64,000 nt of DNA from NCBI RefSeq assembly GCF_011250635.1, contig NZ_JAANNP010000006.1, positions 1-64,000 of the forward strand, read 5' to 3'. The position numbers were made by a program, and so were the translations under genes. The notes under the pieces were generated by a model. That model did no database searches. It was not told where the DNA came from and saw only the letters and a program-made list of their open reading frames with translations. Shown here piece after piece: positions 9,665 through 59,623 of the stretch; the first letter of the stretch is position 1; each line of letters starts with the position of its first letter. This stretch comes from Motilibacter deserti. GTDB lineage: Bacteria > Actinomycetota > Actinomycetes > Motilibacterales > Motilibacteraceae.

Positions 9665-9700
9665 GGACAGGCGCCCGAGGACTCCCTCGGGCGCCTGTCC
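9665..9700. terminator. Perfect 16-bp stem-loop terminator between convergent genes
   Basis: A perfect 16-bp inverted repeat (9665-9680 with 9685-9700) with a 4-base ACTC loop lies in the gap between the convergent genes ending at 9611 and 9781. It can serve both directions and forms a tandem with the smaller hairpin at 9621-9639. Confidence 0.8.
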
Positions 9701-9780
9701 CGTTTCCGGAGCGAGCGCTCAGTGCCAGGGGGCGGCCCGGTCCGCGTCTCATGGCGGGACGGGAGAAAGCATCCTTCGAA

Positions 9781-23584: not shown

Positions 23585-25083
23585 GCGCTGCCCTGACCGC
23601 GCGCGCTCCGCGCCGGCCCCGCGGGCGCCCCGCCTCACTCGTGGCGGGCGTGGGCGTTCCGCTGGTCCTGCAGCTCGCGGGCCTGGGGGTCGCCGGCTGG
23701 CCGCGCGGCCTCCTCGTCCTGCCCGCCGTGGGCCTGCTTCTCGCCGTGGCGTACGCCGGCTCGCGGCTGAGTCATGTGCTGGTTGCGGGCCTCGTCGCCT
23801 TCTTCTGCATCCAGCCGACGTTGAAGTTCTACGTCTCCTGGTACTTCGGCCCCGCGAAGGACGCCGCCGTGCTCGTCGCGGTCCTTGCCTTGGCCATCCG
23901 CCTGCTGCGGGACCGCACCGCGCTGCGCAGAGCTGACCCGTGGGTGGCGGGCGGGGCCCTCCTGCTCGTCGGGCTCTACGTGGTCGATCCCGTCGGCGAC
24001 CATGGGGCAGCCTGGCTGACCGCGACCCGGCTCACCGCGTCCGCGTTCGGGTTGTTCCTCGTCGGCTGGCTGCTTCCCGACCCGGCTCGGACGTGGCGCT
24101 TCGCCGCTGGCGCGCTCGTCGCCGTCGGGGTTGCCCAGGGCCTGCTGGGGCTCGTGCAGCAGGCCATCGGCGCCCAGCGTCTCGTTGATGACTTCGGCCT
24201 CTGGCTCGGGTTCCAGGTGCGGGAGACCCACGGCGGGCAGTTGCGCAGCTTCGGGACCTTCTCGGACCCCTTCAGCTACGCCGCCGTGATGGCTGTCGCC
24301 CTGGTGGCCGCGCTCACGCTGCCGCTGCGCAGGTCGCACGGGGCCGTCGCGACCGGCGTCATCGCCCTTGGGGTGATCGTGTCCTTCGTGCGGACCGAGG
24401 CCGTCCTCGTGGTCGCCGTCCTCGTGGCCGCCGTCGCGGTCCGGGGACACCGAGCGAGTGCGGTCCTGCTCGGCGCGGCCGCGACAGCGGCATCGACGCT
24501 CTACCTCGTCCTGCCCGCACGCACGAGCAGCACGGCGACGGGGCTGGACGTCCTGCTCACGCTGAACGGCAGGACCGAGCTCTGGTCGCAGGTGCTCCGC
24601 GGCCCGTGGGACGTGCTGGCCGGTCGGGGCGTAGGGCAGGTGGGGACCGGGCTGGCGCGCAGCCAGTCCGGTCTGTGGGGCCCGACCGTGGACCAGGCGG
24701 GCGCCACGGTGTCGCCCGGAGCGCCGTCCTCCCTGCTCTACGTCGACAACGCCTACCTCTCCCTCGTAGCCGACGTGGGTCTGCCGGGGCTCGTGCTCAC
24801 CTGCGCGGTCTTCGCGCTGATGGCGCGCACGCTGCTCCGGGCAGCACCTGCTGCTCCAGCGCTGTGCGGGCTCGGCACGCTCGCGGTGGTCGCCGTCGAC
24901 GGGCTCACGCGCAGCTCCCTTACGCAGTTCCCCTTCGGCTACGTCGCCCTGCTGGTCCTCGGGACGGCCCTCGCCGCAGCCACCCACGGCGGCGACGCGC
25001 GGCTATCCGACGCCGGGTGTCAGCCTCGCGGCGCGCTCAGCAAGCCCGCGAGCAGCGGGACCGCAGCCGGGGCGTCTTCGTAG
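23581..25083 (+). CDS. O-antigen ligase / Wzy-type polymerase family membrane protein
   Basis: A 500-residue protein with about 11-12 membrane segments. An outer loop near residues 315-390 contains LNGRTELWSQVLRGPWDVL and SSLLYVDNAYLSLVADVGLP; the latter matches the Wzy_C consensus N.YL....E.G..G. ATG 23581 overlaps the Wzz stop. The last ~21 codons run antisense over the end of the kinase-like gene on the other strand (25020-25083), and that polar tail (KPASSGTAAGASS) is not conserved-looking. Polymerase activity is inferred from its pairing with Wzz. Confidence 0.85.
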   Translation: MSAALTARAPRRPRGRPASLVAGVGVPLVLQLAGLGVAGWPRGLLVLPAVGLLLAVAYAGSRLSHVLVAGLVAFFCIQPTLKFYVSWYFGPAKDAAVLVAVLALAIRLLRDRTALRRADPWVAGGALLLVGLYVVDPVGDHGAAWLTATRLTASAFGLFLVGWLLPDPARTWRFAAGALVAVGVAQGLLGLVQQAIGAQRLVDDFGLWLGFQVRETHGGQLRSFGTFSDPFSYAAVMAVALVAALTLPLRRSHGAVATGVIALGVIVSFVRTEAVLVVAVLVAAVAVRGHRASAVLLGAAATAASTLYLVLPARTSSTATGLDVLLTLNGRTELWSQVLRGPWDVLAGRGVGQVGTGLARSQSGLWGPTVDQAGATVSPGAPSSLLYVDNAYLSLVADVGLPGLVLTCAVFALMARTLLRAAPAAPALCGLGTLAVVAVDGLTRSSLTQFPFGYVALLVLGTALAAATHGGDARLSDAGCQPRGALSKPASSGTAAGASS

Positions 25084-25856
25084 CCGAGGAGCCAGCTGGG
25101 TGCGGCGGCCGCGATCGCCGTCGCTCGAAGGAAGGCTCCGCGTGGGTCGCGGTAGTGGTTGAAGGAGTTCTTGAGCAGCAGCTCTGCGGCCGTGCTCCGG
25201 GGCAGCCTCGTCGCCTCCGGCAGGCCCGGGCGCCGGTCGAGCACCACCACCACGGTCACGTCGACCTGGCCGCGCTCCACGTTCCCGAGCAGACTGGCGC
25301 GGTAGAACCCCTCGGTCTGCGAGCGGACCGGGGCCGGCGCCAGGCCGAGCAGCGCCTGCGACGCGGACAGCAGGCTCAGCGGGCGCGGGTACGCGACCAC
25401 TTTCGTCGCCTCCTCGTCGGGAAAGCGGGCCGCCTCGTCCGTGAGGTACGTGAGCCCTGCCCCGAGCGCGGCAGCGCAGAGCGTCGTCTTGCCGGTGCCT
25501 GACACCGCAGGCACGATTGCGGCGCGGCCGTCGAGGGCGAGGACGGCGGCATGCACCGCGAACACGTCCTCGTCGTCGATCGCCACGGTGTTGAGCAGTC
25601 GCAGCGTGTCCACGACCAGGCCCGGGCCGTCGGGCGATGCGAGCAGCAGGGCGTCCCCGCGGTAGAGCTGCCACCGGCCGTCGGTCTCGCGCAGGGTCCA
25701 GGTGTCCTCGGCGGGCTCGTGCGTCGGGACGACGAGGTCGCCGACGAGGTCGAGCAGCTCGGCCCCGAGCGTGCGGCCGGCAGGCACGACCAGGTCCCAA
25801 CGGCGTCCGAGGACGCCCAGCGCGACGCGGTCGAGGCGCAGGTCCTGTGCGGTCAA
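25020..25856 (-). CDS. HPr-kinase-like (HprK-related) protein
   Basis: 278 residues with the P-loop of the HprK/PEP-carboxykinase-like fold: IVPAVSGTGKTTL places SGTGKTT at 119-125, with VHAA (His 102) before it as in HprK relatives. There is no N-terminal DRTGG domain and no HPr gene nearby, so HPr is an unlikely substrate. Related kinases are paired with PqqD-like proteins in peptide-modification loci. The start appears to be TTG 25856, inside a TTGA overlap with the PqqD-like stop, a typical coupled arrangement. The substrate is unknown: a peptide, a wall protein or a glycan intermediate are all open. Confidence 0.8.
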   Translation of the reverse strand: MTAQDLRLDRVALGVLGRRWDLVVPAGRTLGAELLDLVGDLVVPTHEPAEDTWTLRETDGRWQLYRGDALLLASPDGPGLVVDTLRLLNTVAIDDEDVFAVHAAVLALDGRAAIVPAVSGTGKTTLCAAALGAGLTYLTDEAARFPDEEATKVVAYPRPLSLLSASQALLGLAPAPVRSQTEGFYRASLLGNVERGQVDVTVVVVLDRRPGLPEATRLPRSTAAELLLKNSFNHYRDPRGAFLRATAIAAAAPSWLLGYEDAPAAVPLLAGLLSAPRG

Positions 25857-26131
25857 GGCGTCGCGAGGAGGTAGCCCTCATGGAGCAGGCGCTGGACGGC
25901 GGCCTCGACGTCGGCCCGGATGGCGTCGGCGTCGACTCCCAGAGCGTCGTGCAGCATCTCGACGACCTCGTCCACGGTGGCGGCTCCTGCGGTGCACGCT
26001 GCCCAGATCGAGGTCGCCGACTCGTTGAGCGACAGCGCGCTGGTCGAGGCCGGATGCAGCAGCATCGCCCGTCCCTCGATCTCCTGCACGAGGACGCCGT
26101 CGGCGACCTGCCACGAGAGCGCCTGGGTCAC
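25853..26131 (-). CDS. PqqD family peptide-recognition-like protein
   Basis: 92 residues, the normal PqqD size. VADGVLVQEIEGRAMLLHPA is the beta-sheet of the winged helix, LNESATSIWAAC the conserved LN..A..IW helix, and ADVEAAVQRLLHEGYL the C-terminal helices. PqqD-like domains bind leader peptides and present them to modifying enzymes. The start is GTG 26131 with GGAGGA five to ten bases upstream; the frame is open to 26227 but that would add an unrelated 32-residue tail. It is coupled to the kinase-like gene by a 4-base overlap. No precursor peptide is evident next to it. Confidence 0.85.
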   Translation of the reverse strand: MTQALSWQVADGVLVQEIEGRAMLLHPASTSALSLNESATSIWAACTAGAATVDEVVEMLHDALGVDADAIRADVEAAVQRLLHEGYLLATP

Positions 26132-26260: not shown

Positions 26261-27481
26261 TCACCCGATGCGGGCGGCCTCGGGGTCCCGGAGGTCGATC
26301 GTGCGCTCCTGCTCCGGCAGCTTGATGACCCGCGGGCCGGCCACCACGTCGCGGACGACGGCCCGCAGCCGCGTGCGGAAGGCGGACTCGGAGTAGCGGC
26401 CGGCGTGCTGGGCGACGCGTGCGCGGTCGAGGTCCGGCAGCCGCCGAAGGGCGTCGCGTACCGCCTGAACAGTCGGCTCCTCCACGAAGACGCCCGAGAC
26501 GCCAGGGTCGAGGGTGTCGAGGAAGCCACCGGCGCGGAGTACCACGGCAGGCGTCCCGAACGCGTTGGCCTCGATCGGGGTCAGCCCGAAGTCCTCGTAG
26601 CTCACGCTCACGAGCGCACGCGCATTCGCATAGAGCCAGCGCAGCTGCGCGTCGCTGACGATGCCGAGGCGGGTGACCGGAGCGGGTGCCGTCCGAGGGT
26701 CCCCTGACCCGCTGCCCACGACGACGAGGCGCTGTCCCGCCATGCCTGCCACCGCGTCCTCGACTATTGCGGTGTTCTTGTAGCCGCGGCCGCGGGCCAC
26801 GGTGATGAGGAAGCCGGGCTCGAGGCCGGGGACCGGCTCGCGCTCAGCATCGACGTCGACGGCGACCGGGGGCGCCAGCACCTCGGCCTCGATGCCGTAC
26901 ACCCGCTTGATCCGCTCGGCCACGACGGTGGAGTTCGCGAGGTACCGGTCGGCGGTGCGGGCGGCCCGGTTGTCCCAGCGGGCGAGCGGGCGGCGCACCG
27001 GGGCGAGCGCAGCGCCGCGCCAGGGGGACCGGGCGAAGTACTCCTCGCTCTGGTACAGCCAGCGCGCCGGGTTGTGGCAGTAGACGACCTTGCGGACGCC
27101 CGGCGCGGTGCGGACCGCGTGCGCCCACCCGCTGCTGCTCGCAACGACGACGTCCGCGTCGTCGATCGTGGTCATGCCCCACGCGGGCGCGAGAAGTGGC
27201 AGGGCGAGCCTCGGGTCGTTGCGGAACGCCGGGACGTTCTGCAGCAGGCTGGTGCGCACCTGGTGCCGGTCGAAGCCCGGGAACGTCCGCTCCGCGGCGT
27301 AGACGCTGGTGACGAGCGGCGAGCCGGGGAAGCAGCGCAGCATCGCGAGAGCGACGCGCTCAGCGCCGCCCCGCTGCGTGACGTAGTCGTGGGCGACGAC
27401 GACGCGCGGCTGGGCGCTCTGCGGCTGCCCGGCGGGAGACGCCTCGACGCGCGGGGCGACGTACCTCGTCAACGTCTTCAT
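26261..27481 (-). CDS. Glycosyltransferase family 4 (WbaZ-like mannosyltransferase group)
   Basis: 406 residues. RVVVAHDYVTQRGGAERVAL is the acceptor-domain entry, VVYCHNPARWLYQSEEYF a hallmark of the WbaZ-like subgroup, and EDFGLTPIE the EX7E donor motif, followed by GTPAVVLRAGGFLDT. Enzymes of this group often transfer mannose, but that is family knowledge only. ATG 27481 is preceded by GAGG; GTG 27496 in the same frame would overlap the upstream gene. It is seven bases downstream of the LARTG protein gene and so probably in its operon. Confidence 0.87.
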   Translation of the reverse strand: MKTLTRYVAPRVEASPAGQPQSAQPRVVVAHDYVTQRGGAERVALAMLRCFPGSPLVTSVYAAERTFPGFDRHQVRTSLLQNVPAFRNDPRLALPLLAPAWGMTTIDDADVVVASSSGWAHAVRTAPGVRKVVYCHNPARWLYQSEEYFARSPWRGAALAPVRRPLARWDNRAARTADRYLANSTVVAERIKRVYGIEAEVLAPPVAVDVDAEREPVPGLEPGFLITVARGRGYKNTAIVEDAVAGMAGQRLVVVGSGSGDPRTAPAPVTRLGIVSDAQLRWLYANARALVSVSYEDFGLTPIEANAFGTPAVVLRAGGFLDTLDPGVSGVFVEEPTVQAVRDALRRLPDLDRARVAQHAGRYSESAFRTRLRAVVRDVVAGPRVIKLPEQERTIDLRDPEAARIG

Positions 27482-27488
27482 CGTGGCC

Positions 27489-28103
27489 TCACGCACGCGC
27501 GGACCGACGGCGCAGGGCCGGGACCGAGACCAGCCCGAGGCCCGCGATCAGCAGCGCGGCGGCGGCGGACAGCAGGACCGGGAGGCTCGTCGCACCCGTT
27601 CGGGCGAGGCCACCGGCGGCGGCGCCCGAAGCGCTGCTCTCCGAGCCGTCCCCCGAGCCGCTGCCGGCGCTGCCCCCTTCGGCACCCGTGCCGGGGGCCG
27701 GGGCCGCCGGGCCCGTCGCACCCGCCGGGCAGTCGCTGGCGGTCACGGTCGCGGTGACGGTGCGCGCCGCGTCCCCGGGCGGCGGGGTCTGCCCGGTCGC
27801 GGTGAGCGTGTAGGTGCCCGCCTGCGCGGGCGAGAGGACGTAGCTCGCCTTGCCGCTCGCGTCGGCCACGACGAACGTGCCCTCTGCGCCGGCGCCGGTG
27901 ATGGCCACGGTGCTGCTCGGCGCGAAGCCGTCGGCGGCGAAGGTCACCGACGTGCCCACGCATGCGTCGGACGCGGTGACCGTGCCGTTGCCGCTCGTCG
28001 GCACGTAGTCCGCCCAGGCGGCGCTCGTGCCCGCCGCGCCCAAGAACGCCGCGCTGACGATGCCCGCCCCCAGGATCGTCATCAACTGCTGAGTCGTTCG
28101 CAT
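27489..28103 (-). CDS. Cell-wall-anchored surface protein with LARTG sorting signal
   Basis: 204 residues. A signal peptide covers ~1-31 (MRTTQQLMTILGAGIVSAAF to SAAWA). An Ig-like beta domain follows (~35-125), then a Gly/Ser-rich stalk, then LARTG at 166-170, a hydrophobic span and an RRRSARA tail. LAxTG is the motif used by class E sortases of high-GC Gram-positives; no sortase gene is in the window, so the enzyme must be elsewhere. The single domain pattern TVTAS..C suggests a disulfide. Start ATG 28103 has GGAGGGG upstream. Its function on the wall is unknown; it might tether the polysaccharide. Confidence 0.82.
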   Translation of the reverse strand: MRTTQQLMTILGAGIVSAAFLGAAGTSAAWADYVPTSGNGTVTASDACVGTSVTFAADGFAPSSTVAITGAGAEGTFVVADASGKASYVLSPAQAGTYTLTATGQTPPPGDAARTVTATVTASDCPAGATGPAAPAPGTGAEGGSAGSGSGDGSESSASGAAAGGLARTGATSLPVLLSAAAALLIAGLGLVSVPALRRRSARA

Positions 28104-28194: not shown

Positions 28195-29964
28195 CTAGCG
28201 TTGACACGAAGCGTGATGAACGTTGACCGTCGGTGGTTGTACGAGTGGCTGAGTGCGAACGGTTGGTGCAGCAGTCATGGCCGGCAGGTTGGCGTGCAGC
28301 GTGAGCTCCCGCTGCGAGCCGGGGTCGACTGTGGTGTAGAGCGACAGGACCGTAAAACCGCTCTCCGTGCGCACCTCCATCCCGGTCGCCGTCCCGTCCA
28401 GCGTCGCTGCGCCCAGCGTCGACCCGGGCGGTAGGTAGACCGAGACGTAGTCGCGGCGCTGCCCGGTGGGGGATCCCGGCCGGCCGCCGAGGTCGGCCCG
28501 AGTGGTGACGTACGCGGGGAGCCCACTGCGAGGTGCGGAGTTCCCGATGCGCACGTCGAGCGTCGCCTCCTGCCGCCCCTTGGCGCAGGCCGCGGAGGTG
28601 TAGGTGATCTCGCGGGTGATGTAGGGGCCGAGCTTGCTCCCGCCGGCATCGTTCACGACCACGGCGATCAGGGGGGAGGGAGGGCCGGACAGGCTGCCGC
28701 CGATCCGTTGTCCGGCGAGGATCGCCTGTACCCGCTCGTCTCCGGGCATCGCGACCGAGATGCGCCCCTCACGGGCGCCGCGGACCAGGGCGAGGACGAG
28801 CGCGCGCGCGTCGGTGCGCGGGGACATGACGGCGGTGAGCGTCCGGTCGAGCAGCTCGCGGACCCGCTCGTCGCGCTCGAGCTCGTCGGGATAGCGGGCG
28901 TACTGGTCCTGCAAGACGAAGCGGGCCGCTGTCCCGGCGTCGAGCTGCGTCCCGTCGGAGAGCCGGACAGGGCCCGTCGCGGCGAGGAGGTAGCCGAGGA
29001 CCAGCGGGTCCATGGTGGCCACGCCGTCCACCCGCTCCCCGCGCGACGCCTCCCACTTCGCGGCCCAGATGCCGGCCGCCACGGGCAGGTCCGGGCTGAC
29101 GCCGCCGTTGATGGCCAGGGTCGTCGGCGACCACGTGCCCCACTGGGCGGCGTACCCCGGCGGCAGCGGCACCTTCACCGCACGCTCGTTCCGGAAGATG
29201 CGGTTCGTCTCCACCTCGGTCACCGTCACCTTGCCGCGGTCCGCCCTCGCGACGCCCACGCCCCCGAGGAGCCCGCCCGTGCCGCGCGCCTCGGCAGGCG
29301 TCTGCAGGGCCACCAGCCATCGACGGGGTGACTGCGCGCCCAGGGCGGCGGGGAGCACACGGGCCGCGGTGTGAGCGGCGCCGAGCGTGCAGACCAGGTC
29401 GTCCAGGGTGCCCAGCAGCGTGGAGCGGGCCGTCCCGACCTGCGCGGGCCGGCTCACCTCAGGCGAGCGCGCGACGCGCTCCCGCACGCGTCTGGCGGCC
29501 GCTACGGCGTCTCCCAGCGGCGCCTCTGCGGCGACCAGCGGTGGCAGTCGGAAGGCCGCCGAACCGGTGCGCAACTGCTCGGGACGCAGGGCGGCCGCGA
29601 CCGGCAACAGTGGCGGGAGGACCTCGCGGCTGAGGTCGTCGGCCGCCGCGGTCAGCGCCCGGACCGTGCGCAGCGGCCCGCCCGCGACCGGCACCCGCGA
29701 CCCGACCGCCCACACCGGGCCTCCGGTGAGGTCGCGCGCCCGGGCCGCATGTCCCGAGGCGGCGCTCAGTGCCGCCGCTGCGGTGGCGGCGTCCCCCGAG
29801 AGCGCGGCGGTCCGAGCGGTGGTGAGCTGCGCCTGCGCCGCTTCGAGCTCGGCACGGGCGTCGCGGCCGCTCGAGAGCAGTTGGTAGCCCGCCGCTGTGC
29901 CGGCGAGGACGACCAGGGCCACCACGGCCACGGCCGCGAGGAGGAGCCGGCGGGTTCTGCGCAC
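28195..29964 (-). CDS. DUF4012 domain-containing membrane-anchored protein
   Basis: 589 residues with one N-terminal membrane segment (~8-30) and a large outside domain. TPAEARGTGGLLGGVGVARAD and the TEVETNRIFRN region are the core of DUF4012, found in actinobacterial and other Gram-positive surface-polymer clusters; its activity is unknown. The helical stretch ~32-130 could be a coiled coil. The start is GTG 29964 with a weak ribosome site. The two-gene spacing (43 bases from the Tat protein gene upstream, 91 to the LARTG gene downstream) suggests a wall-assembly operon. Confidence 0.82.
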   Translation of the reverse strand: MRRTRRLLLAAVAVVALVVLAGTAAGYQLLSSGRDARAELEAAQAQLTTARTAALSGDAATAAAALSAASGHAARARDLTGGPVWAVGSRVPVAGGPLRTVRALTAAADDLSREVLPPLLPVAAALRPEQLRTGSAAFRLPPLVAAEAPLGDAVAAARRVRERVARSPEVSRPAQVGTARSTLLGTLDDLVCTLGAAHTAARVLPAALGAQSPRRWLVALQTPAEARGTGGLLGGVGVARADRGKVTVTEVETNRIFRNERAVKVPLPPGYAAQWGTWSPTTLAINGGVSPDLPVAAGIWAAKWEASRGERVDGVATMDPLVLGYLLAATGPVRLSDGTQLDAGTAARFVLQDQYARYPDELERDERVRELLDRTLTAVMSPRTDARALVLALVRGAREGRISVAMPGDERVQAILAGQRIGGSLSGPPSPLIAVVVNDAGGSKLGPYITREITYTSAACAKGRQEATLDVRIGNSAPRSGLPAYVTTRADLGGRPGSPTGQRRDYVSVYLPPGSTLGAATLDGTATGMEVRTESGFTVLSLYTTVDPGSQRELTLHANLPAMTAAPTVRTQPLVQPPTVNVHHASCQR

Positions 29965-30007: not shown

Positions 30008-30607
30008 TCAGTGGGCCAGCGTGATGATGCCGCTGCAGGTGGCAGAGCCTCCGCAGGGCGTGATCGTCAGCCGCACCTTGCCGCCGATGCACGGCGTGCA
30101 CGAGGGGCGCGACGGGCGGCAGACCTTCCGATTCCAGCAGTCACGGAACGTCCGCGTGTAGGTGTTGGTCGTCGTGGTGGGCCAGGTCGACGGCCGGAGC
30201 AGGTTGTAGGCCGACGCCTGCGTCGAGGTCAGTTGGCGCGCGTCCTGGCTGTCGATGTCCACCGAGCCCGCGAGGCTGTACTGGAAGACGTCGTAGACCC
30301 AGTCCTTGATCGCCGCGTCGGAGCAGCCGGCCTTGATGTCGTCGAGGGCCCGGCTGGCGTTGGTCGTCGTAGGCCGGACGATGAACGTCTGCTCGAAGCA
30401 CGATGTCTTGTTGACCCAGAACACCGCCTTGACGGTGTAGTAGTCGCACGTCGAGGGCTTGGGCGACGGCTTGGTCGTCGCCTCGGCCGACAGGCTCATC
30501 GTCTGCAGGACCGGGGCGCTCCACGCGAGGGTGCCGCCGACCACTGCGATGCGGCGGAGGGCATCCCTGCGCGAGACGTTCCCAGGCTGGGTCGCACTGT
30601 CGTTCAT
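30008..30607 (-). CDS. Tat-exported cysteine-rich protein of unknown function
   Basis: 199 residues. The N-terminus MNDSATQPGNVSRRDALRRI carries a twin-arginine-type motif (SRRDAL, 12-17) followed by a hydrophobic stretch ending SAEA, so export of a folded protein is likely. The mature part has nine cysteines, four of them in a ~16-residue cluster (CWNRKVCRPSRPSCTPC). I recognise no family. ATG 30607 follows GGGGGG; the frame is open to 30751 but those residues do not resemble protein. It is the first gene of the minus-strand run 25020-30607 and diverges from rplY. Confidence 0.65.
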   Translation of the reverse strand: MNDSATQPGNVSRRDALRRIAVVGGTLAWSAPVLQTMSLSAEATTKPSPKPSTCDYYTVKAVFWVNKTSCFEQTFIVRPTTTNASRALDDIKAGCSDAAIKDWVYDVFQYSLAGSVDIDSQDARQLTSTQASAYNLLRPSTWPTTTTNTYTRTFRDCWNRKVCRPSRPSCTPCIGGKVRLTITPCGGSATCSGIITLAH

Positions 30608-30995: not shown

Positions 30996-31628
30996 GTGTC
31001 CGAGGTCCGCATCTCCGCCGAGCCCCGTACCGAGTTCGGCAAGGGTGCGGCACGCCGCATCCGCCGCGACCACAAGGTGCCGGGCGTCGTCTACGGCCAC
31101 GGCAACGCGCCGCGCCACATCGCGCTGCCCGGGCACGACCTGATGCTCGCGCTCAAGACCCCCAACGTCCTGCTCTCGCTCGACCTGGGCGGCGAGACGA
31201 TCCTCGCGCTGCCGAAGGACGTCCAGCGCGACCCGGTCAAGGGGTTCCTCGAGCACGTCGACCTGGTCGTCGTCGAGCGCGGCGAGGCCGTCAGCGTCGA
31301 GCTGCCGATCCACGTCACCGGCAAGCCGGCCGGCGACGGCCTGCTCGTCGTCGACCTGCAGACGGTGTCCGTGGTCGCCGAGGCCACCCACCTGCCCGAG
31401 TTCGTCGAGCTGTCGGTCGACGGCATGCCCGCCGGGACGCAGGTCCTGGCCAAGGAGATCTCGCTGCCGGCGGGCGCCACCCTGGAGGGCGACCCCGAGC
31501 TGTCGATCCTGCGCATCACGGGTACGCCCACCGCCGAGCAGCTGGACGCCGACCTCGCCGGCGCCGAGGCCGAGCTGGGGATCGTGCACGAGGCGAAGTC
31601 CGAGCCCGCCGCCGGCTCGGAGGGCTGA
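30996..31628 (+). CDS. rplY: Large ribosomal subunit protein bL25 (CTC form)
   Basis: 210 residues of the long Ctc type. The N-terminal 5S-rRNA-binding domain (~1-92) has RTEFGKGAARRIRR and VPGVVYGHG. The C-terminal TL5 domain includes DLQTVSVVAEATHLPEF-like strands and GDPELSILRIT, and an acidic tail follows. It binds 5S rRNA at the central protuberance. GTG 30996 has GAGGAG 8-13 bases upstream. It is followed by pth after three bases, the usual actinobacterial pairing, but here both genes sit inside the polysaccharide cluster. Confidence 0.97.
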   Translation: MSEVRISAEPRTEFGKGAARRIRRDHKVPGVVYGHGNAPRHIALPGHDLMLALKTPNVLLSLDLGGETILALPKDVQRDPVKGFLEHVDLVVVERGEAVSVELPIHVTGKPAGDGLLVVDLQTVSVVAEATHLPEFVELSVDGMPAGTQVLAKEISLPAGATLEGDPELSILRITGTPTAEQLDADLAGAEAELGIVHEAKSEPAAGSEG

Positions 31629-31631
31629 CGC

Positions 31632-32243
31632 CTGGCCGGGGACCTTCCCGGCGGCGCGCCCGTCGACGGGGCGTGGCTGGTCGTGGGCCTGGGCAACCCG
31701 GGCCCGGACTACGCCACGACCCGTCACAACGTCGGCGCGATGGCGCTGGACGTCCTCGGCGGGCGCGTCGGCGGGCGCTTCGGCGCCCACCGGCGGGGGC
31801 GCGCCGACGTGCTCGAGGGCCGCATCGGCGGGCCGGGCGGCCCCCGGGCCGTGCTGGCCAAGCCGCGGTCCTACATGAACGAGTCGGGCGGCCCGGTCGC
31901 CTCGCTGCAGCAGGCGTTCAAGATCGGGCCTGAGCGCATCGTCGTGGTCCACGACGAGCTCGACCTCCCGTTCGGGGCGCTGCGGCTGAAGCTGGGCGGG
32001 GGCGACAACGGGCACAACGGGCTCAAGTCCCTTCGGCGCTCGCTCGGGACCGGCGACTACCTGCGCGTACGCCTTGGCATCGGCCGCCCGCCCGGGCGCC
32101 AGGACCCCGCCGACTTCGTGCTCAAGCCCTTCTCCTCTCCGGAGCGCAAGGAGCTCGACGTCTTCCTTGAGCGCGCGGCCGACGCCGTCGAGGAGCTCGT
32201 GACGCTCGGCCTCGAACGCGCGCAGAGCTCGTTCAACGACTGA
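31632..32243 (+). CDS. pth: Peptidyl-tRNA hydrolase (probable CTG start)
   Basis: It recycles tRNA from peptidyl-tRNA. All catalytic landmarks are present: [17 protein letters not shown] (Asn and His), [18 protein letters not shown] (Asp) and GHNGLKS. The first beta strand of the fold ([11 protein letters not shown]) begins upstream of the first ordinary start codon, GTG 31683, which would delete it. In the same frame CTG 31632 is preceded by GGAGGG at 31619-31624, seven bases away, and no ATG, GTG or TTG lies between. I therefore place the start at CTG 31632 (203 residues); the conservative alternative is 31683 (186 residues). It is coupled to rplY with a three-base gap. Confidence 0.93.
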
Positions 32244-52445: not shown

Positions 52446-53774
52446 TCAGGAGGCGTCGCTGCGCTCGCGTGGCGCGGCGTGCTCGACCACGACGGCCGGG
52501 CGGCGCATGCGGCGCGCCCGGATGCGGCGGGCGGTGCCGACGAAGGAGCTCGCCTTCTCGCGCGGCGTCAGGTCCCGCAGCCACGAGCGGAAGGCCGGCA
52601 TGTGTGCGTAGCGCGGCGCGGGCAGGCCGAGCAGCCGCATCGTCGTGATGCGCCCCCAGACGGCGCCTCGGGTGCGGACGAGGTTGGGCTGGCTGCGCGG
52701 CAGGACGTCGTTGCCCACGCGCTCGAGGACGAGCGCCCCGGAGGCCCGCGCGGCCGCCACGGCCTGCCGGCCGCGCTCGGTGCGCACGACGACGAGGCTG
52801 CGCCCCGGCTCGCCGGGCTCGATCTCGCGGTACCACGGGTCGCCCACCGCCACGTCGGCGAACTCGCCGGTGTGGTCGAGGCAGACGTGGCACCGCCACT
52901 GGCGGTGCCGCTGCAGGATCGCGCCCCACGAGTCCGCGTAGGAGAAGCGCGCTTCGTGGAACTCGCCGTCCCTCGTCCCGGTGGCCACGGCCTCGCCGGG
53001 CCAGCCGTTGCCGCGGTAGCGGACCGACTCCACGTCCGAGGGGTCCGCGAAGCCCATCGCACGCACGAGCTCGAGCGTCCCCGCCGTCGACGGGGTGCCC
53101 GCGCAGAAGACGCCGATCGTCAGGGCGAGCCCGGCCTGCAGCGCCGGCCGGACGGCCGTCGCCTTCGCCGCGCCGGCGACGTCGCACGGCTTGCCGATGA
53201 AGACGTAGGGGCTCGACCCCACCGCCCCCGCCCGCTCCGCGGTGCCCAGCCCGTCGGCCGGGCTCGCCGGGGCGTAGCGCGACCCGGCCCGGGCGAGGAG
53301 CTCCTCGCGGGTGGTGCTGACGACCGTCTCGTTGAGCAGCGGCGCGTCGGCGCGCGCGGCGGTGTGGATGACGCCGGCCGCGCCGCCGGAGCCCACCAGG
53401 TGCAGCGCGAGGGCGCTGGCCGCGCCGCCGCTGGACCCGGCGAACCGCAGCTCGGGGTCGCCCGCGTACCCCTCCCAGACCTCGAGGACCGGGCCCCAGC
53501 CGGGAAGCAGGCCGGGGTCGGCGCCCGCCGGCACCGACCCGGGGTCGTGGGCGAGGGCGGCACCGGGGCAGGCGCGCAGCGCGGCCTGCGTCGAGGGCGA
53601 CCCGGACGGCAGCAGCTGCAGCGGGCGTCGCCCGGCCGCGAGGTCGTCGACCATGCGGACCGCGTCGGGCGCGACGAAGGCGCACGTGCCGCAGCCGGAG
53701 CAGAGCCGCCCCTCGGCGACCTCGGTGATGTCGCGTGGCGCCCCGGGGCGCAGCCCGCGCCGACGCCCGCTCAC
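52446..53774 (-). CDS. FrhB/FdhB-like iron-sulfur protein (coenzyme F420 hydrogenase/dehydrogenase beta-subunit family)
   Basis: 442 residues. RLCSGCGTCAFVAPDAV places a CxxCxxC set at residues 25, 28 and 31, and ACPGA (~70) supplies a fourth cysteine, a 4Fe-4S ferredoxin-type start. FAGSSGGAASALALHLVGSG and YVFIGKPCDVAGA are the conserved glycine-rich and KPCD regions of the FrhB family; WRCHVCLDHTGEFADVAVGD is the C-terminal part. In many capsule loci this family is found beside pyruvyl transferases, with no F420 reaction shown. The GTG at 53774 overlaps the pyruvyl transferase stop by four bases. The electron donor is unknown. Confidence 0.86.
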   Translation of the reverse strand: MSGRRRGLRPGAPRDITEVAEGRLCSGCGTCAFVAPDAVRMVDDLAAGRRPLQLLPSGSPSTQAALRACPGAALAHDPGSVPAGADPGLLPGWGPVLEVWEGYAGDPELRFAGSSGGAASALALHLVGSGGAAGVIHTAARADAPLLNETVVSTTREELLARAGSRYAPASPADGLGTAERAGAVGSSPYVFIGKPCDVAGAAKATAVRPALQAGLALTIGVFCAGTPSTAGTLELVRAMGFADPSDVESVRYRGNGWPGEAVATGTRDGEFHEARFSYADSWGAILQRHRQWRCHVCLDHTGEFADVAVGDPWYREIEPGEPGRSLVVVRTERGRQAVAAARASGALVLERVGNDVLPRSQPNLVRTRGAVWGRITTMRLLGLPAPRYAHMPAFRSWLRDLTPREKASSFVGTARRIRARRMRRPAVVVEHAAPRERSDAS

Positions 53775-55105
53775 CCGCCGCCGCCGCGACCGACGAGCCG
53801 GCCGGCGTGCCGCCCGCTCTCCGCCACGCCGACCACCTCCTCCATCTGGCTTGCCGCCCGCCGGGCGACCTCCTGCACCGACCGTGCCAGCTCGCCCCGG
53901 GCGCTGTCCCGCGCTTCCCACGATGCGAGCAGCGCGTCCAGCGCGGTCGCGTCGTCCACGCGGCGCGCGTCCACGACGCCCGCTGCGGCGCCCACCGACG
54001 CGAACACCCCGCGGAACTTCATGCTGTAGGCGAGAGCCGCCGTCGGGACGCCGGACGACAGCGCTCCGATGGTCGCGTGCATGCGGGCGCCGGTGAACCA
54101 GGACGTCCGCGAGATCACCCACTTGGCCTGCGTCGCGTCCATGGGCCCGGTGACGACGTGCACCCGGTCCCGCCAGCGCTCCGGCAGCTGGGCCGCCAGG
54201 TGCAGGCACGCCCCGGTGTCTGACTCGACGGGCGCGTCCGGGCCGACCAGTCCGGCCGGCCCGAGCACGTGCGGGACGAGCAGAACGCGCGCGCCCGCGG
54301 CGCAGAGCCGCTCGACGAACGCGCGCACGACGGCGGGGTAGTCGACGGACAGCCCGTAGCGCGCCGCGGCCGTCGGGTCGTTGTAAAGCAGGCCGCTCAC
54401 ATTGACGCCCGCGACCGGCGCCCCGTCGCCGTCGACGAACCGCTCCACCGCGTCCGCGACCGCGTCGTCCGGGCGGCGCACCGGCAGCGCGAACGCCATG
54501 TCGACGCCGAGCCGGTGCCGCTGCGGGTCGTACTCGTCCCCGAGCAGCTCGCGCAGCGCGTCGTGGCTGTCGCTGTCGCGCGCCCACGCCGCGTGCGCCG
54601 CACGCACCACCCGCGCCGCCTTGGCCCGCATGGCCGGGTCGGGGAAGGGGCCGTACGTCTGCGGCAGCAGGACCAGCGGCCGGCCGGCCTGCAGGGCGAG
54701 CAGCTTGGGCAGCAGCACGGTGCGGAACCGGAACTCCCCGTACGTCCCGGCGAAGCTGTCCCCGCCGCTGACGTCGAGCACGGCGTCGGCGCCGCGGACC
54801 AGCCGGGCGCCCACGCTGCCCGCTCCGCCGAGCCGGAGCGCGAGCCGCATGCGGGCGTAGCTCTCGGGGCGGTCCAGCCGACGGCTGTTGCGCGCGCCGC
54901 AGAGCCGGTACGCCGCCGCCCGCCCGTCGGCCAGCTCGAGGGCCGCGGGGCGTACCCCCCACCCGTCGTCGAAGGCGACGAGCCGCGCGTCGGGGCGGCG
55001 CTCGAGGACACCGTGCAGCAGCGAGAGCCGAAGCGCTCCGACACCGAGGTTGTAGGCGGTGCCGGGCGTGCCGAACAGGCAGGCGCGCAGCGGGCCATCG
55101 GTCAC
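53771..55105 (-). CDS. Polysaccharide pyruvyl transferase family protein
   Basis: 444 residues, PF04230-like. FGTPGTAYNLGVGALRLSLL is the N.G..A....L entry, VLDVSGGDSFAGTYGEFRFR the GGD(S/L) segment, VLLPQTYGPFPDP the P.QS.GP motif and WFTGARMHATIGALSSGVPT the R.H....A...G.P signature. The family adds pyruvate ketals to exopolysaccharide sugars. GTG 55105 with GAGG upstream is used; the frame is open to 55213. It is first in the minus-strand operon FrhB-like, methyltransferase, methyltransferase, beta-helix. Confidence 0.88.
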   Translation of the reverse strand: MTDGPLRACLFGTPGTAYNLGVGALRLSLLHGVLERRPDARLVAFDDGWGVRPAALELADGRAAAYRLCGARNSRRLDRPESYARMRLALRLGGAGSVGARLVRGADAVLDVSGGDSFAGTYGEFRFRTVLLPKLLALQAGRPLVLLPQTYGPFPDPAMRAKAARVVRAAHAAWARDSDSHDALRELLGDEYDPQRHRLGVDMAFALPVRRPDDAVADAVERFVDGDGAPVAGVNVSGLLYNDPTAAARYGLSVDYPAVVRAFVERLCAAGARVLLVPHVLGPAGLVGPDAPVESDTGACLHLAAQLPERWRDRVHVVTGPMDATQAKWVISRTSWFTGARMHATIGALSSGVPTAALAYSMKFRGVFASVGAAAGVVDARRVDDATALDALLASWEARDSARGELARSVQEVARRAASQMEEVVGVAESGRHAGRLVGRGGGG

Positions 55106-55312
55106 GGGCAGCACCTCGGCATGGGGGCGCCGGCACGGCGGGTCGCGGCGCCGGTCGGGGGCGGGAGGGGCCTGCTGGCCGGCCCGGCGGAGGGTCACGG
55201 CCGGAGCACGCACAGACCCAGGCGGGGGAAACTACCAGAGGAACGCCCTCCCGATCCGGGGCTGGATGGCAGGCTGTTCGCCAGGAAGCCGGACGTCATC
55301 GAGGAGGAACGC

Positions 55313-56092
55313 GTGGACCTGTGGCAGTTGACGGTTCTCGTGCTGCGCAGGTGGTACGTCGCCCTTCCCATCGCCTTCCTCGCCGTGTTCGCGGCGGCGC
55401 TCGCCGGCAGCCGGATCCAGCCGGAGTACGCGACGACCGCCCGGGTCCAGATCACCTCGCCCAACGTCACCCTCGTCGGCGGCCTGGGCGCGCTCGCACC
55501 GGACGAGTCCGGTGACGACGTGCAGGAGGTGACGATCAACCCCTTCCTCTCCGCCGGCGCGCAGACGATGGCGCAGACGATGGAGTTCAAGATGGGCAGC
55601 CAGGAGGTCCGCCGCGAGGTCGCAGCCCGCGGCGGCGCGGGCGGCTACACGGTCAAGGCGCAGACCCGGACCCCCTTCCTCCAGCTGAGCGTCGTCGCCG
55701 ACAGCGCCGGCCAGGCCGTGCGGACCGCCGAGGTCTTCGGCCAGGTCCTCCGCCGCGAGCTCGAGGCGCTCCAGGACGCCAAGGGGTCGCCGGAGATCCA
55801 GCAGTTCACCGTCACCGACCTCGCGGTCGGCGAGACCCCGAGCGCGGGCAAGAGCGGGCTGCGCAAGGTCCAGGCCATCGTGCTCGGCGTCGGGCTCGCG
55901 CTCGCCGTCGGCCTCGCGCTCGCGGTGGAGGGCGTGGCCCGGGCCCGGGCGCAGCGGCACGCCCGGCGCCGCGCCCTCGCGGGCCTCGGCCCCGACGACC
56001 GCGCCGACCCGGCCCGCGCCGGTGCGCCGGCGCCCGGCGGGGACGAGCCGGTCGTGCTCCCGCGGCGGCCGCACGCGGGGTCGTGGCACTGA
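55313..56092 (+). CDS. Wzz-like chain-length determinant without kinase domain
   Basis: 259 residues. VDLWQLTVLVLRRWYVALPI leads to membrane segment 1 (~12-32). A periplasm-facing region with YATTARVQITSPNVTLVGGL follows, then segment 2 (~188-212) and an Arg-rich cytosolic tail. There is no Walker motif and no tyrosine-rich tail, so it is not a tyrosine-kinase-fused type. GTG 55313 has GAGGAGG five bases upstream, the best ribosome site in the region. It is first in a four-gene operon with a Wzy-like protein, a GT2 and a nucleotidyltransferase, all overlapping. Confidence 0.83.
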   Translation: MDLWQLTVLVLRRWYVALPIAFLAVFAAALAGSRIQPEYATTARVQITSPNVTLVGGLGALAPDESGDDVQEVTINPFLSAGAQTMAQTMEFKMGSQEVRREVAARGGAGGYTVKAQTRTPFLQLSVVADSAGQAVRTAEVFGQVLRRELEALQDAKGSPEIQQFTVTDLAVGETPSAGKSGLRKVQAIVLGVGLALAVGLALAVEGVARARAQRHARRRALAGLGPDDRADPARAGAPAPGGDEPVVLPRRPHAGSWH

Positions 56093-57522
56093 CCGGGCCA
56101 GCGGCCGGACCCCTCCTGCCCGCCCGTCCCGGCCCGCGCCGGCCGGCGGCCGACCGCCCCCTCCTGCGCGACGCGACGGACGCCGGGGTCGTCGTCGGCG
56201 CGCTCGTCCTCCTGCTCTACGCCCTGCCGCCCCGGCTGGTCGTGTCCGGGCTCGGCGCCGCCGGCCGCCCCGCGCTGATGCTCGGCTTCGGGTTGTTCGC
56301 GTGGTGGTGCGCGATGCGGCTCGTGCCGGGGCTCGCCGCCCGCGGCCGGCAGCCGGTCCGCTGGGCGCTCGCCGCGTACCTCCTGCTCTATGTCCTGTCC
56401 TACGCCGCCGGCTACGACCGTGGGCTCGACGGCGTCGAGGGGCGCAGCGCCGACCGCGGGCTGCTCGTGACCGTGGCGCTCGTCGGCACCGCGCTCGTCG
56501 TGGCCGACGGCGTGCCGACGCGGCGCTCCCTGGACCGGCTGCTTCGCACGCTCGTCCTGGCGGGCGCGGGGATGTCGGTCGTGGGCGCGCTGCAGCACGT
56601 CGCGGGCATCGACCTCACCCGCCACATCGTCGTACCGGGCCTGTCCCGCAACGGGACCCTCATCGGCATCGGCGCCCGCGGCTCCGGGGACCTGTCGCGG
56701 GTGGCGGGCACGGCGGGGCACTACATCGAGTTCGGCGTGATCCTCGGCATGCTGCTGCCGCTCGCGCTGCACTACGCGCTGTTCGCCCGCAGCGGCCGCG
56801 AGCGCCGGTGGCGCTGGCTGCTCGTCGTGGTCATCGGCGTGGGCGTGCCGTTCTCCATCTCCCGCTCCGCCGTCCTCGCGCTCGTGGTGGGGCTCGTCGT
56901 CGTCATGGCGCCGTGGCGGCTGCGGGCGCAGGCCAATGTCGCCATCGGCGCCCTGGTCGCCCTGGTCGCCGTGCGGGCCACCCAGCCCGGGCTGCTCGGC
57001 ACGATCCGGTCGCTGTTCACCAACGCGGGCAACGACCCCAGCATCCAGAACCGCACGAGCGACTACGCCGCGGTCTCGGGCTACATCTCCGAGCGCCCCT
57101 GGCTCGGGCGCGGGCAGGGCACGTTCCTGCCCGACCGCTACGTGCTGCTCGACAACCAGCTGCTCGGCACGCTCGTCAGCGGCGGCGTGCTCGGGCTGGC
57201 CGCACTGCTCGTGCTCTTCGCGGTCGCGTTCAGCCTGGCGCGCCGGGCCCGGCGCACCGCGCCCGACGAGCAGGCTCGCTCGCTCGGGCAGGCGCTGGCG
57301 GCGGCGGTCGCGGTGGGCCTCGTCGCCTCGGCGACCTTCGACTCGCTCGGCTTCACGACCTTCGCGATGACGTTGTTCCTCCTCTTCGGCGCGACCGGCG
57401 CGCTGTGGAGGCTGACGCGAGGCCCGGCCGCCGCCGGCCGCGCGGACGAGCCCGTGCCGGACGTGCCCGTCCTCCGGGAGCGGCCGCTGCTGCGCCCTCT
57501 CGCAGGGCAGGCCGCCCGATGA
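56083..57522 (+). CDS. O-antigen ligase / Wzy-type polymerase family membrane protein
   Basis: 479 residues with about 11 membrane segments. A large outer loop (~305-360) has NRTSDYAAVSGYISERPWLG and GQGTFLPDRYVLLDNQLLGT, the RP..G.G...........D N....L..GG..G pattern of the Wzy_C domain. It polymerises or ligates repeat units outside the membrane. GTG 56083 overlaps the Wzz gene by ten bases. It is the third Wzy-like protein of the window; this one is most clearly paired with a Wzz in one operon. Confidence 0.88.
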   Translation: MALTGPAAGPLLPARPGPRRPAADRPLLRDATDAGVVVGALVLLLYALPPRLVVSGLGAAGRPALMLGFGLFAWWCAMRLVPGLAARGRQPVRWALAAYLLLYVLSYAAGYDRGLDGVEGRSADRGLLVTVALVGTALVVADGVPTRRSLDRLLRTLVLAGAGMSVVGALQHVAGIDLTRHIVVPGLSRNGTLIGIGARGSGDLSRVAGTAGHYIEFGVILGMLLPLALHYALFARSGRERRWRWLLVVVIGVGVPFSISRSAVLALVVGLVVVMAPWRLRAQANVAIGALVALVAVRATQPGLLGTIRSLFTNAGNDPSIQNRTSDYAAVSGYISERPWLGRGQGTFLPDRYVLLDNQLLGTLVSGGVLGLAALLVLFAVAFSLARRARRTAPDEQARSLGQALAAAVAVGLVASATFDSLGFTTFAMTLFLLFGATGALWRLTRGPAAAGRADEPVPDVPVLRERPLLRPLAGQAAR

Positions 57523-58376
57523 GCGCGGGCGCGCCGCGGTCGGTGGACATCCTCATGATCACCTACAACAGCGCGGACTACGTGTCGCTCTCGCTGCCGC
57601 GCCTGCTCGCGTCCTGCGACGAGCACGCGCGCGTGTGGCTGTGGCACAACGGCGACGACGAGGCGACGCTCGAGGCCGTGCGTGCCCACGCCGGCGACCC
57701 GCGCGTGCACCGGTTCCACCACAGCCGCGAGAACGTACGGCTGCGCACGCCCACCAACTGGCTCTGGGCCGAGGGCGACGCCGACTTCGTGAGCAAGGTC
57801 GACGACGACTGCCTCGTGCAGCCCGACTGGCTGGAGCTGCTGCGCCGGCCCTACGCCGACTTCGCCGGGTTCGGCGTGCTCGGGTCGTGGCGCTTCCCGG
57901 ACGAGGACTTCGTCCCCGAGCTGGCCGGGCGCAAGATCGCCGAGTTCCCCGGCGGGCACCGCGTCCTGCGCAACCACTGGGTCCAGGGCAGCGGCTACCT
58001 GCTGCCCCGCCGGCTCGTCGCGGAGCAGGGGCCGCTGCGCGAGGGCCAGTCGTTCACGCAGTACTGCCTCGCGCTCGCCCGCAGGGGCGCCGTCAACGGC
58101 TGGAGCTACCCCTTCGTCCGCGAGGACCACATGGACGACCCCCGGTCGGCCCACACGCTGTTCCGCACCGACGCGGACTTCGCCCGTCGGCGGCCGCTGA
58201 GCGCGCAGGCCCTCGGAGTGACGCGGCTGGCCGACTGGGAGGAGCAGATGCGCGACTCCGCGCGCACCGCCCAGACGGCGTCGCTGGACCTGCGCGAGTA
58301 CTCCCCGTGGCGCGCGCGGCGGAGGGCGCTGGCCCGACGGGTCCGCAGGTCGCTCGGCGGCCGGGCGCGCTGGTGA
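57519..58376 (+). CDS. Glycosyltransferase family 2-like
   Basis: 285 residues. SVDILMITYNSADYVSLSLP is the GT-A entry; FVSKVDDDCLVQPDWLELL carries a DDD metal site; GSWRFPDEDFVPELAGRKIA and NHWVQGSGYLLPRRL form the acceptor side. The set resembles GT2-like proteins of actinobacterial surface clusters. ATG 57519 overlaps the Wzy stop (ATGA) and its own stop overlaps the nucleotidyltransferase GTG, so the whole operon is coupled. Confidence 0.82.
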   Translation: MSAGAPRSVDILMITYNSADYVSLSLPRLLASCDEHARVWLWHNGDDEATLEAVRAHAGDPRVHRFHHSRENVRLRTPTNWLWAEGDADFVSKVDDDCLVQPDWLELLRRPYADFAGFGVLGSWRFPDEDFVPELAGRKIAEFPGGHRVLRNHWVQGSGYLLPRRLVAEQGPLREGQSFTQYCLALARRGAVNGWSYPFVREDHMDDPRSAHTLFRTDADFARRRPLSAQALGVTRLADWEEQMRDSARTAQTASLDLREYSPWRARRRALARRVRRSLGGRARW

Positions 58377-59623
58377 GGGCCCGACGCCGGTCAGCGCCGT
58401 CGACCGCGCTCGTGACGGCGGTGCGCTGCGCGCTCGGGGTGCCGGGGCAGGAGCCCGCGCTGCGCGCGGCGGTGGCGGCGCTCCACGCAGCCGGCCGTGC
58501 CGAGCTGCTCGCCCGGGCCTGGCACCACCGCGTCGGCCCCATGGTCCGGCTCGGCGTCCTGCTCTCGACGCCGTCGCCGCGGCCGGGCGACCCGGCGGCT
58601 CTGCTCGCCGCCGACCTGCGCGCGCAACACCTGGCCGCGAGCGCAGGGCATGTCCGCGCCGTGCACGACCTGGGCCTGGTCGCCGACGCCCTCGACGGCG
58701 CCGGGCTCGCGTGGGCCGCGCTCAAGGGCCCCGTCCTCGCGGCGCGCGTCTACCCGCGCGAGGACCTGCGCCCGTACGGCGACATCGACGTGCTCGTCGA
58801 CCCGCTGGCCCTGGGCGCGGCACTCCGCGCCCTCGAGCGGGCCGGCTTCCAGGTGCTCGACCGCAACTGGCAGCTGCTTCGCGAGCGCGTGCTCGGCGAG
58901 CTGCACCTGCGCGCTCCGAGCGGGTCCACCGTGGACCTGCACTGGCAGCTGGTGAACCGGCCGGAGGTGCGCGCCCGCTTCCACCTGCCTACCGGGCCGC
59001 TGCTCGGGCGCGCGGCCCGGGCCGACGTCGCCGGGCGCGACATCCCGGTGCTCGACCCGGTGGACACGCTCAACCACCTGTGCCTGCACGCCGGGCTCGC
59101 CGGTGGGGACCGGCTGCTCTGGCTGGCCGACATCGCGCTGGCCGCCCGGGCGCTGCCGGGCAGCGCGGGCGCCGACGCGGGCCCGGGCGGGTGGCCTGGC
59201 ATGGACCAGCTCGTGGCGCGGGCCGGACAGGCCGGCGCGGGCAGCATGGTCGCGCTGATGCTGCGCCGGGCGGACCGGCTGCTCCCGGTTCCCGGCGCGG
59301 ATCACGCCGTGGCGCTGCTGCAGCCCTCGCGCCCCCTCCGCGCGACGCTCGAGGCCGTCGACCGCCTGGTCCCGGTGCAGCAGGTGCGGCGCCCCGGGTC
59401 CCTGCCGCGGACGGCCGCCCGCGCCGTGGACTCGACGCTGCTCGGCACGCTCGTCGCCGCCGTCGCCTTCCTGCGCGACCGCGCGCAGGAGCGGCTTCCC
59501 GGCCACCGGGTGCCCGGCTCGGACTGGTCCCGCTCCGTGCTGCACCCGGCGGGGGGAGCGGAGGACCGTGCCGCGTTCCTCGAGCGGGTCGCCGAGGCCG
59601 AGCGGCGCGAGCTGCAATGCTGA
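58373..59623 (+). CDS. Nucleotidyltransferase family protein (NTase_5-like, PF14907 group)
   Basis: 416 residues. LAWAALKGPVLAARVYPRED precedes YGDIDVLVDP, with the G-D-x-D metal-binding pair at D137 and D139, as in the uncharacterised nucleotidyltransferase family PF14907. VDLHWQLVNRPEVRARFH supplies the third acidic residue (DLHW), and VDTLNHLCLHA the helical region. Members occur in lasso-peptide and polysaccharide clusters, often near HprK-like kinases and PqqD-like proteins; this genome has those at 25020-26131. GTG 58373 is in a GTGA overlap with the GT2. Its substrate is unknown. Confidence 0.82.
   Translation: MRARRRSAPSTALVTAVRCALGVPGQEPALRAAVAALHAAGRAELLARAWHHRVGPMVRLGVLLSTPSPRPGDPAALLAADLRAQHLAASAGHVRAVHDLGLVADALDGAGLAWAALKGPVLAARVYPREDLRPYGDIDVLVDPLALGAALRALERAGFQVLDRNWQLLRERVLGELHLRAPSGSTVDLHWQLVNRPEVRARFHLPTGPLLGRAARADVAGRDIPVLDPVDTLNHLCLHAGLAGGDRLLWLADIALAARALPGSAGADAGPGGWPGMDQLVARAGQAGAGSMVALMLRRADRLLPVPGADHAVALLQPSRPLRATLEAVDRLVPVQQVRRPGSLPRTAARAVDSTLLGTLVAAVAFLRDRAQERLPGHRVPGSDWSRSVLHPAGGAEDRAAFLERVAEAERRELQC

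Follow-up and report, generated by a model that had tools for sequence, protein, structure and literature searches.

The window, that is, the whole 64,000-nucleotide stretch of Motilibacter deserti DNA analysed here (contig NZ_JAANNP010000006.1, positions 1 to 64,000 of the forward strand), contains a same-strand run of genes read from 30607 down to 25020. The run opens with a Tat-signal protein and continues with a DUF4012 protein, a protein with a LARTG tail, a GT4 glycosyltransferase and a PqqD-like protein; an HprK-like kinase comes last (Table 1). The TTG start of the kinase overlaps the stop of the PqqD-like gene, and the kinase overlaps tail to tail with a Wzy-like gene. The original prediction of a P-loop kinase (SGTGKTT) translationally coupled to a 92-residue PqqD-like protein is thus confirmed, the latter matching PF05402 with E=1.2e-13. 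The prediction overlooked, though, the Tat-signal protein at the head of the operon, which is the likely substrate. In the sister species (G003, L028) the gene order is kept, with 76% identity for the Tat protein and 59% for the kinase. The Tat-leader gene and the kinase are not adjacent in the window; they lie 4.6 kb apart.

Two Wzz/Wzy pairs had been proposed. The second is recognised by Pfam, and a PF14907 nucleotidyltransferase does accompany it, overlapping a GT2 gene downstream of Wzz and Wzy. The kinase-side pair (22802-23584 and 23581-25083) gave no match in profile searches and is assigned by hydrophobicity and gene order only.

Table 1. Positions of the features discussed, in window coordinates
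Feature	Coordinates	Strand	Remarks
HprK/PEPCK-fold kinase	25020..25856	-	278 aa; H102, P-loop S119-G-x-G-K123, D140-E141
PqqD-like RRE (adaptor)	25853..26131	-	92 aa; translationally coupled to kinase
GT4 glycosyltransferase	26261..27481	-	same operon
Secreted protein, sortase-like LARTG tail	27489..28103	-	same operon; weak LAVTG domain match
DUF4012 membrane-anchored protein	28195..29964	-	same operon; profile match 7.6e-36
Tat-exported Cys-containing protein, proposed substrate	30008..30607	-	199 aa; first gene of operon
Candidate phosphorylated Ser48, W+19 (TTKPSPKP)	30464..30466	-	conserved in core group; modification inferred
WSAP (WxxP) RRE-recognition motif, Tat hydrophobic core	30512..30523	-	motif per PMC13381572, PMC12710340
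rplY (30996-31628) and pth (31683-32243)	30996..32243	+	landmark adjoining module in window and L038
Polysaccharide pyruvyl transferase	53771..55105	-	similar gene set by nucleotidyltransferase in another family
Wzz-like chain-length protein	55265..56092	+	Wzz 3e-4, below curated cut-off
Wzy-like polymerase/ligase	56083..57522	+	Wzy_C 4e-11
GT2 glycosyltransferase	57519..58376	+	overlaps nucleotidyltransferase; coupled
PF14907 nucleotidyltransferase, proposed second modifying enzyme	58373..59623	+	E=2.7e-32

Several other genes deserve mention. In the sister genome one ORF (L028:17303-18160) holds the N-terminal half of GT4 together with PqqD, reflecting truncation and fusion or an assembly fault. 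Near rplY-pth, 33552-35345 of the window encodes a secreted protein whose repeats resemble the RCC1 type, and the polysaccharide region encodes very large predicted secreted proteins of 1172, 1320 and 1715 aa (6093-9611, 12419-16381 and 39358-44505).

The kinase and its PqqD-like partner

The AlphaFold model of the kinase (pLDDT 95.5) has the PEPCK/HprK fold, aligning with HprK/P (1kkl) over 134 residues at 2.8 A (VIA-align Z 14.1) and with PEPCK over 264 residues at 4.9 A (Z 16.3). With this fold, the P-loop, the His and the Asp, the protein belongs among the HprK/PEPCK-fold kinases. Across 36 relatives, with residues numbered as in the window, H102, G122, K123, T125, G134 and E141 never vary and D140 hardly ever does; the catalytic set known from HprK and PadeK (His, Lys and Asp) is invariant or nearly so in the subfamily. 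An active site stripped of its catalytic residues had been named as evidence against the original prediction, and the alignment finds those residues conserved. Among NCBIfam models the kinase matches TIGR04352 best, although weakly (62.2 bits against a curated cut-off of 200), and the PqqD-like protein reaches 26.2 bits against TIGR04353 (cut-off 35). The two models are paired by name as the HPr-rel-A system, for which we know of no substrate; with both scores below the curated cut-offs, we do not assign the pair to it.

When the profile of the PqqD-like protein was compared with the PDB, the best match was the lasso RRE TbiB1 (5v1u, E=2.4e-15); LppB (9x8z, 4.9e-8), TfuB1 and PbaB1 were also matched. 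All four are RREs with solved leader complexes (PMC13381572). Three relatives, L026 and L032 from this genus and L102 from another family, encode PqqD and kinase as a single protein, and in the model of the L026 fusion a TbiB1-like domain (TM 0.86) lies N-terminal to the kinase. We therefore classify the protein as an RRE with the wHTH PqqD fold of the known RRE-leader complexes, the structural match being that of the L026 fusion model. In this genus the fused genes belong to a second module (L026:8838-11235, L032:9694-12066) with WxxP-Tat proteins on both sides; these proteins have a domain of ~150 residues, and ABC-transporter genes lie upstream. A search for plasmid copies of the fused PqqD-kinase found none. 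In an Acidimicrobiia genome, two PqqD-like genes (L004:8901-9101 and 9678-9941) surround one WxxP-Tat gene, and paired RREs occur in L105 and L106 too.

The original prediction drew a comparison with lasso-peptide clusters. In paeninodin and pseudomycoidin biosynthesis an HprK-like kinase (PadeK, ThcoK, PsmK) phosphorylates a precursor Ser and a nucleotidyltransferase-like enzyme, PsmN, adds hexoses to the phospho-Ser (PMC9266682). The window could accordingly hold a diverged lasso tailoring set of kinase, B1-type RRE and nucleotidyltransferase whose cyclase and protease are lost or encoded elsewhere, the three enzyme families being the same (PMC9266682) and TbiB1 being the closest RRE of known structure. 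However, a whole-genome search for the B2 transglutaminase-like leader peptidase (PF13471, Transglut_core3) gave no match in this 98.7% complete genome, and a motif scan of the window for an Asn-synthase-like cyclase near the kinase was negative. The catalytic residues differ as well. While PadeK and ThcoK require His-Lys-Asp-Asp (PMC9266682), D-E follows the P-loop in 35/36 kinases of the subfamily (34 read by script and L039 by eye; the P-loop of L104 was unmatched), as opposed to D-D in 5/6 scored B2-associated kinases, making the Tat-group kinases H-K-D-E rather than H-K-D-D. The B2-associated kinases also sit in other parts of the kinase tree. Finally, no lasso-sized precursor was identified, and our candidate substrate is an entire exported protein, as are the Tat-signal proteins found instead in nearly all relatives (see below). 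We regard the lasso reading as highly improbable, the least probable of those considered here, and membership in a lasso cluster as largely refuted for this genome. A contig of 5.4 kb (L083, G000:C157) carries a further HprK-like kinase next to a second PF14907 gene, although the genome lacks a B2 gene.

A twin-arginine leader with a WxxP motif

The product of 30008-30607 carries SRRDALRRIAVVGGTLAWSAPVLQ, a twin-arginine signal with WxxPxL, the motif read by RREs of the lasso and LPP types, in its hydrophobic core. Related kinases have the same kind of neighbour, namely genes for small secreted proteins in whose twin-arginine signal the hydrophobic core always contains W-x-x-P. The leader consensus is [ST]RRxxLxRGAxxGGxxWxxPx[VIL]...AxA, after which much of the core group has SPSG, and WxxPx[VILM] is present in 40 leaders matching the RR..WxxP pattern out of 42 leader matches. 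It equals the motif recognised by discrete RREs, [Y/W]xxPx[L/V/I/F/A] (PMC12710340, PMC13381572). A 2025 survey found W/Y/LxxP to be a widespread RRE motif (PMC12710340), and a 2026 study solved structures of RREs in complex with WxxP and YxxP leaders (PMC13381572). We take the window protein to be a Tat substrate on the strength of its twin-arginine signal and of the TatC encoded in the genome, which also encodes four sortases. TIGR01409 scores it above the cut-off in the genome scan and slightly below it in hmmscan, and the NCBIfam Tat-signal model matches 8/12 leaders at E up to 0.1.

The leader accompanies one part of the kinase family. We compared 76 kinases in all, 36 of them forming the subfamily (96 bits or more; across Actinomycetota) and 40 scoring below. 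A Tat-leader match lies within 6 kb of 34/36 subfamily kinases versus 1/40 other HprK-like kinases (Fisher 5e-18). The two exceptions are L098, at a contig end, and L102, which has kinase, RRE and nucleotidyltransferase and in which no Tat leader was recognised. Mapped on the kinase tree, the Tat-leader label changes 6 times, as against 25 when shuffled. Among 394 genomes of the class, 20 have a strong kinase, 20 a strong leader and 19 both; in G075, the genome with a kinase only, a contig end truncates the leader, and in the converse case (G043) PqqD runs to the contig end. Within the class there is some circularity in this linkage, the leader profile having been built with leaders from the vicinity of kinases. 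The independent evidence is the out-of-class loci and a Tat control within the window's own genome. Kinases of other classes (96-134 bits), fetched by a phylum search after the profile was built, again have RR...WxxP genes: of the loci outside the training set (L027 included) 10/12 are positive, one of them, L103, by a weak profile match (24 bits) that does not fit the RR...WxxP pattern. In the window's genome, WxxP occurs in 4/27 clearly read Tat signals, all four beside HprK homologues (Fisher 6e-5), whereas the 23 ordinary Tat signals are without it. The association may extend beyond the reach of the profile, since a looser pattern uncovers short WxxP Tat leaders at seven loci of a weaker HprK-like kinase clade (families f27, f33 and f36; L057, L062, L079, L084, L085, L092, L093), and a YxxP version in L107.

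Downstream of the motif, the position 19 residues past the Trp (W+19) is Ser in 23/26 and Ser or Thr in 25/26 core-group leaders, many of which come from close relatives. Several separate families and one Acidimicrobiia genome keep the position as well. Beyond the core group Ser is found in 1/14, so the site or the residue must differ there; a phosphosite common to all leaders was looked for, but the Ser at W+19 holds in the core group only.

The Tat-signal proteins have ~100-380 residues, mostly 100-250, and highly diverse cargo domains. At least 15/26 core-group proteins end in sorting signals of the LPxTG/LAxTG type, a figure obtained by reading the tails, since an automatic count of 17/40 had clear false positives and misses. 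The window protein and those of L026, L032 and L095-L097 are without a sorting signal, as would be expected if protein and kinase cooperated to make a secreted phosphopeptide signal or toxin that is not wall-anchored. Given the sorting signals in the core group and the size of most cargos, we judge this to be decidedly unlikely.

The nucleotidyltransferase and the polysaccharide genes

That kinase, PqqD-like protein and nucleotidyltransferase belong together, as proposed originally, is supported by their co-occurrence: in 198 genomes of the class, PF14907 is present in 14/14 with the kinase and in 35/184 without (P about 7e-10). The nucleotidyltransferase lies 32 kb from the kinase in the window, and within 6 kb of it in only 8/36 relatives. 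In several genomes of family f20 the PF14907 gene is on the same contig as the kinase at a distance of 8-30 kb, and in other classes it is often a few kb from kinase, RRE and Tat gene, with UDP-sugar and capsule genes alongside. Elsewhere, in L145, PF14907 is accompanied by Wzz-, Wzy-, pyruvyl-transferase-, FrhB- and GT2-like genes, a set that by eye resembles 52446-59623 of the window and much of which recurs in L146. This linkage to kinase, RRE, Tat protein and sugar genes, together with the chemistry of PsmN, makes a sugar step plausible. However, the PF14907 region of some f20 genomes holds a lasso-type kinase as well, which leaves the assignment of that step insecure.

Polysaccharide genes adjoin the module in other classes as well as in the window, contrary to what would have refuted the original prediction. 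In such surroundings kinase and RRE might act directly on polysaccharide synthesis, for instance on Wzz-like proteins, with the Tat protein as an unrelated neighbour. We consider this very unlikely: the neighbours of the kinase include no recognised Wzz-like gene in many relatives, the constant neighbour is the Tat gene and no Wzz or Wzy gene, and it is the Tat leader that contains the RRE motif. Control of polymer length, the function originally suggested for the three enzymes, finds no support here, as nothing connects the system to Wzz function.

Relation to known systems and a proposed mechanism

The closest parallel is with the LPP (linear polyphosphorylated peptide) RiPPs of Bacillota, whose capsule loci encode an RRE, an HprK-like kinase, an NTP transferase, a signal peptidase and an exporter (PMC13381572). 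There, LppK phosphorylates a Ser 18 residues past the Tyr of the YxxP motif in the precursor (PMC13381572). The window shares with these loci a discrete RRE adjoining an HprK-like kinase and the capsule or polysaccharide setting; an NTP transferase is present 32 kb away. It also shares a putative precursor with a [Y/W]xxPx[V/L] leader motif and a variable C-terminus, with a phospho-Ser soon after the leader in LPPs and a candidate Ser here. LPP precursors have 35-200 residues with a conserved N-terminus and a variable C-terminus, which we count as a further likeness. The systems differ in export. In LPPs a dedicated archaeal-type signal peptidase, encoded beside an MsbA-like exporter, cleaves the leader, whereas in our Actinomycetota the motif lies within a Tat signal and many products carry sortase signals. 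No archaeal-type signal peptidase I is encoded in the window cluster, the sole TIGR02228 gene above the cut-off being on another contig, and no MsbA-like exporter was recognised by eye among the window genes.

Taken together, we propose that the genes of the locus form a protein-phosphorylation system guided by an RRE and akin to the LPP RiPPs of Bacillota, one that acts on Tat-exported and often sortase-anchored proteins in polysaccharide loci; we put the probability of this reading at about 0.62. The PqqD-like RRE would bind WxxPx[VIL] within the Tat signal of the 30008-30607 product while the latter is still cytoplasmic, and present to the HprK-like kinase the segment directly behind the signal, in which a Ser or Thr would be phosphorylated (in the core group, presumably the Ser at W+19). 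The modified protein would then leave by the Tat route and lose its signal, with wall anchoring by sortase to follow in many relatives. A further step may be the addition of sugar to the phosphate by the PF14907 enzyme, perhaps together with the coupled glycosyltransferases, which would link the protein to the polysaccharide of the locus. What the analysis establishes is the gene linkage, the motif, the folds, the conservation of the catalytic residues and the lack of a lasso B2; binding of this leader by the RRE, phosphorylation and its site, the sugar step and the sequence of events are inferred from these. The earlier idea that the three enzymes modify a peptide or surface protein is thereby strengthened, with the Tat protein now as a specific candidate.

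Tat proofreading chaperones such as TorD and DmsD are cytoplasmic proteins that bind the Tat signal before export. They are of a different family, and in the window system the RRE has a kinase partner. The RRE could nevertheless play their part, holding the signal until folding or assembly is done, with the kinase as an ATP-driven release or regulatory factor and not as a modifier. The high diversity of the cargo domains would suit this, as would the position of the motif inside the core of the Tat signal, since RRE binding should mask the signal. Against it stand the closest characterised RRE-kinase pair, LppB-LppK, which does phosphorylate its precursor (PMC13381572), and the Ser/Thr kept by the core group at a fixed distance from the motif; we hold a purely chaperoning role to be unlikely. 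Phosphorylation guided by the RRE, our preferred reading, can be taken further: as a reader of the Tat signal, the RRE would make the export signal serve as the modification leader and couple export to modification, and a Ser phosphorylated and then glycosylated by PF14907 would covalently join the surface protein to the Wzy-made polysaccharide. This extended version is speculative, and we offer it as doubtful.

The enzymes and the motif are already known. What we did not find described is a leader embedded in a Tat signal and substrates that are whole, often sortase-anchored proteins. Our literature search, with subscription journals largely outside it, found no paper on 'HprK-related kinase' or PF14907, nor any that connects RiPP leaders to twin-arginine signals. 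If the proposal is true, RiPP-style, leader-guided modification reaches whole exported surface proteins, with the Tat signal doubling as leader. The HprK/PqqD/PF14907 sets of polysaccharide loci that have no known target would gain a substrate and a test, and further substrates could be sought by a simple sequence criterion: RR...WxxP in the vicinity of an HprK-PqqD pair. It would also suggest a route by which Actinomycetota may join sugar polymers to proteins via phosphate.
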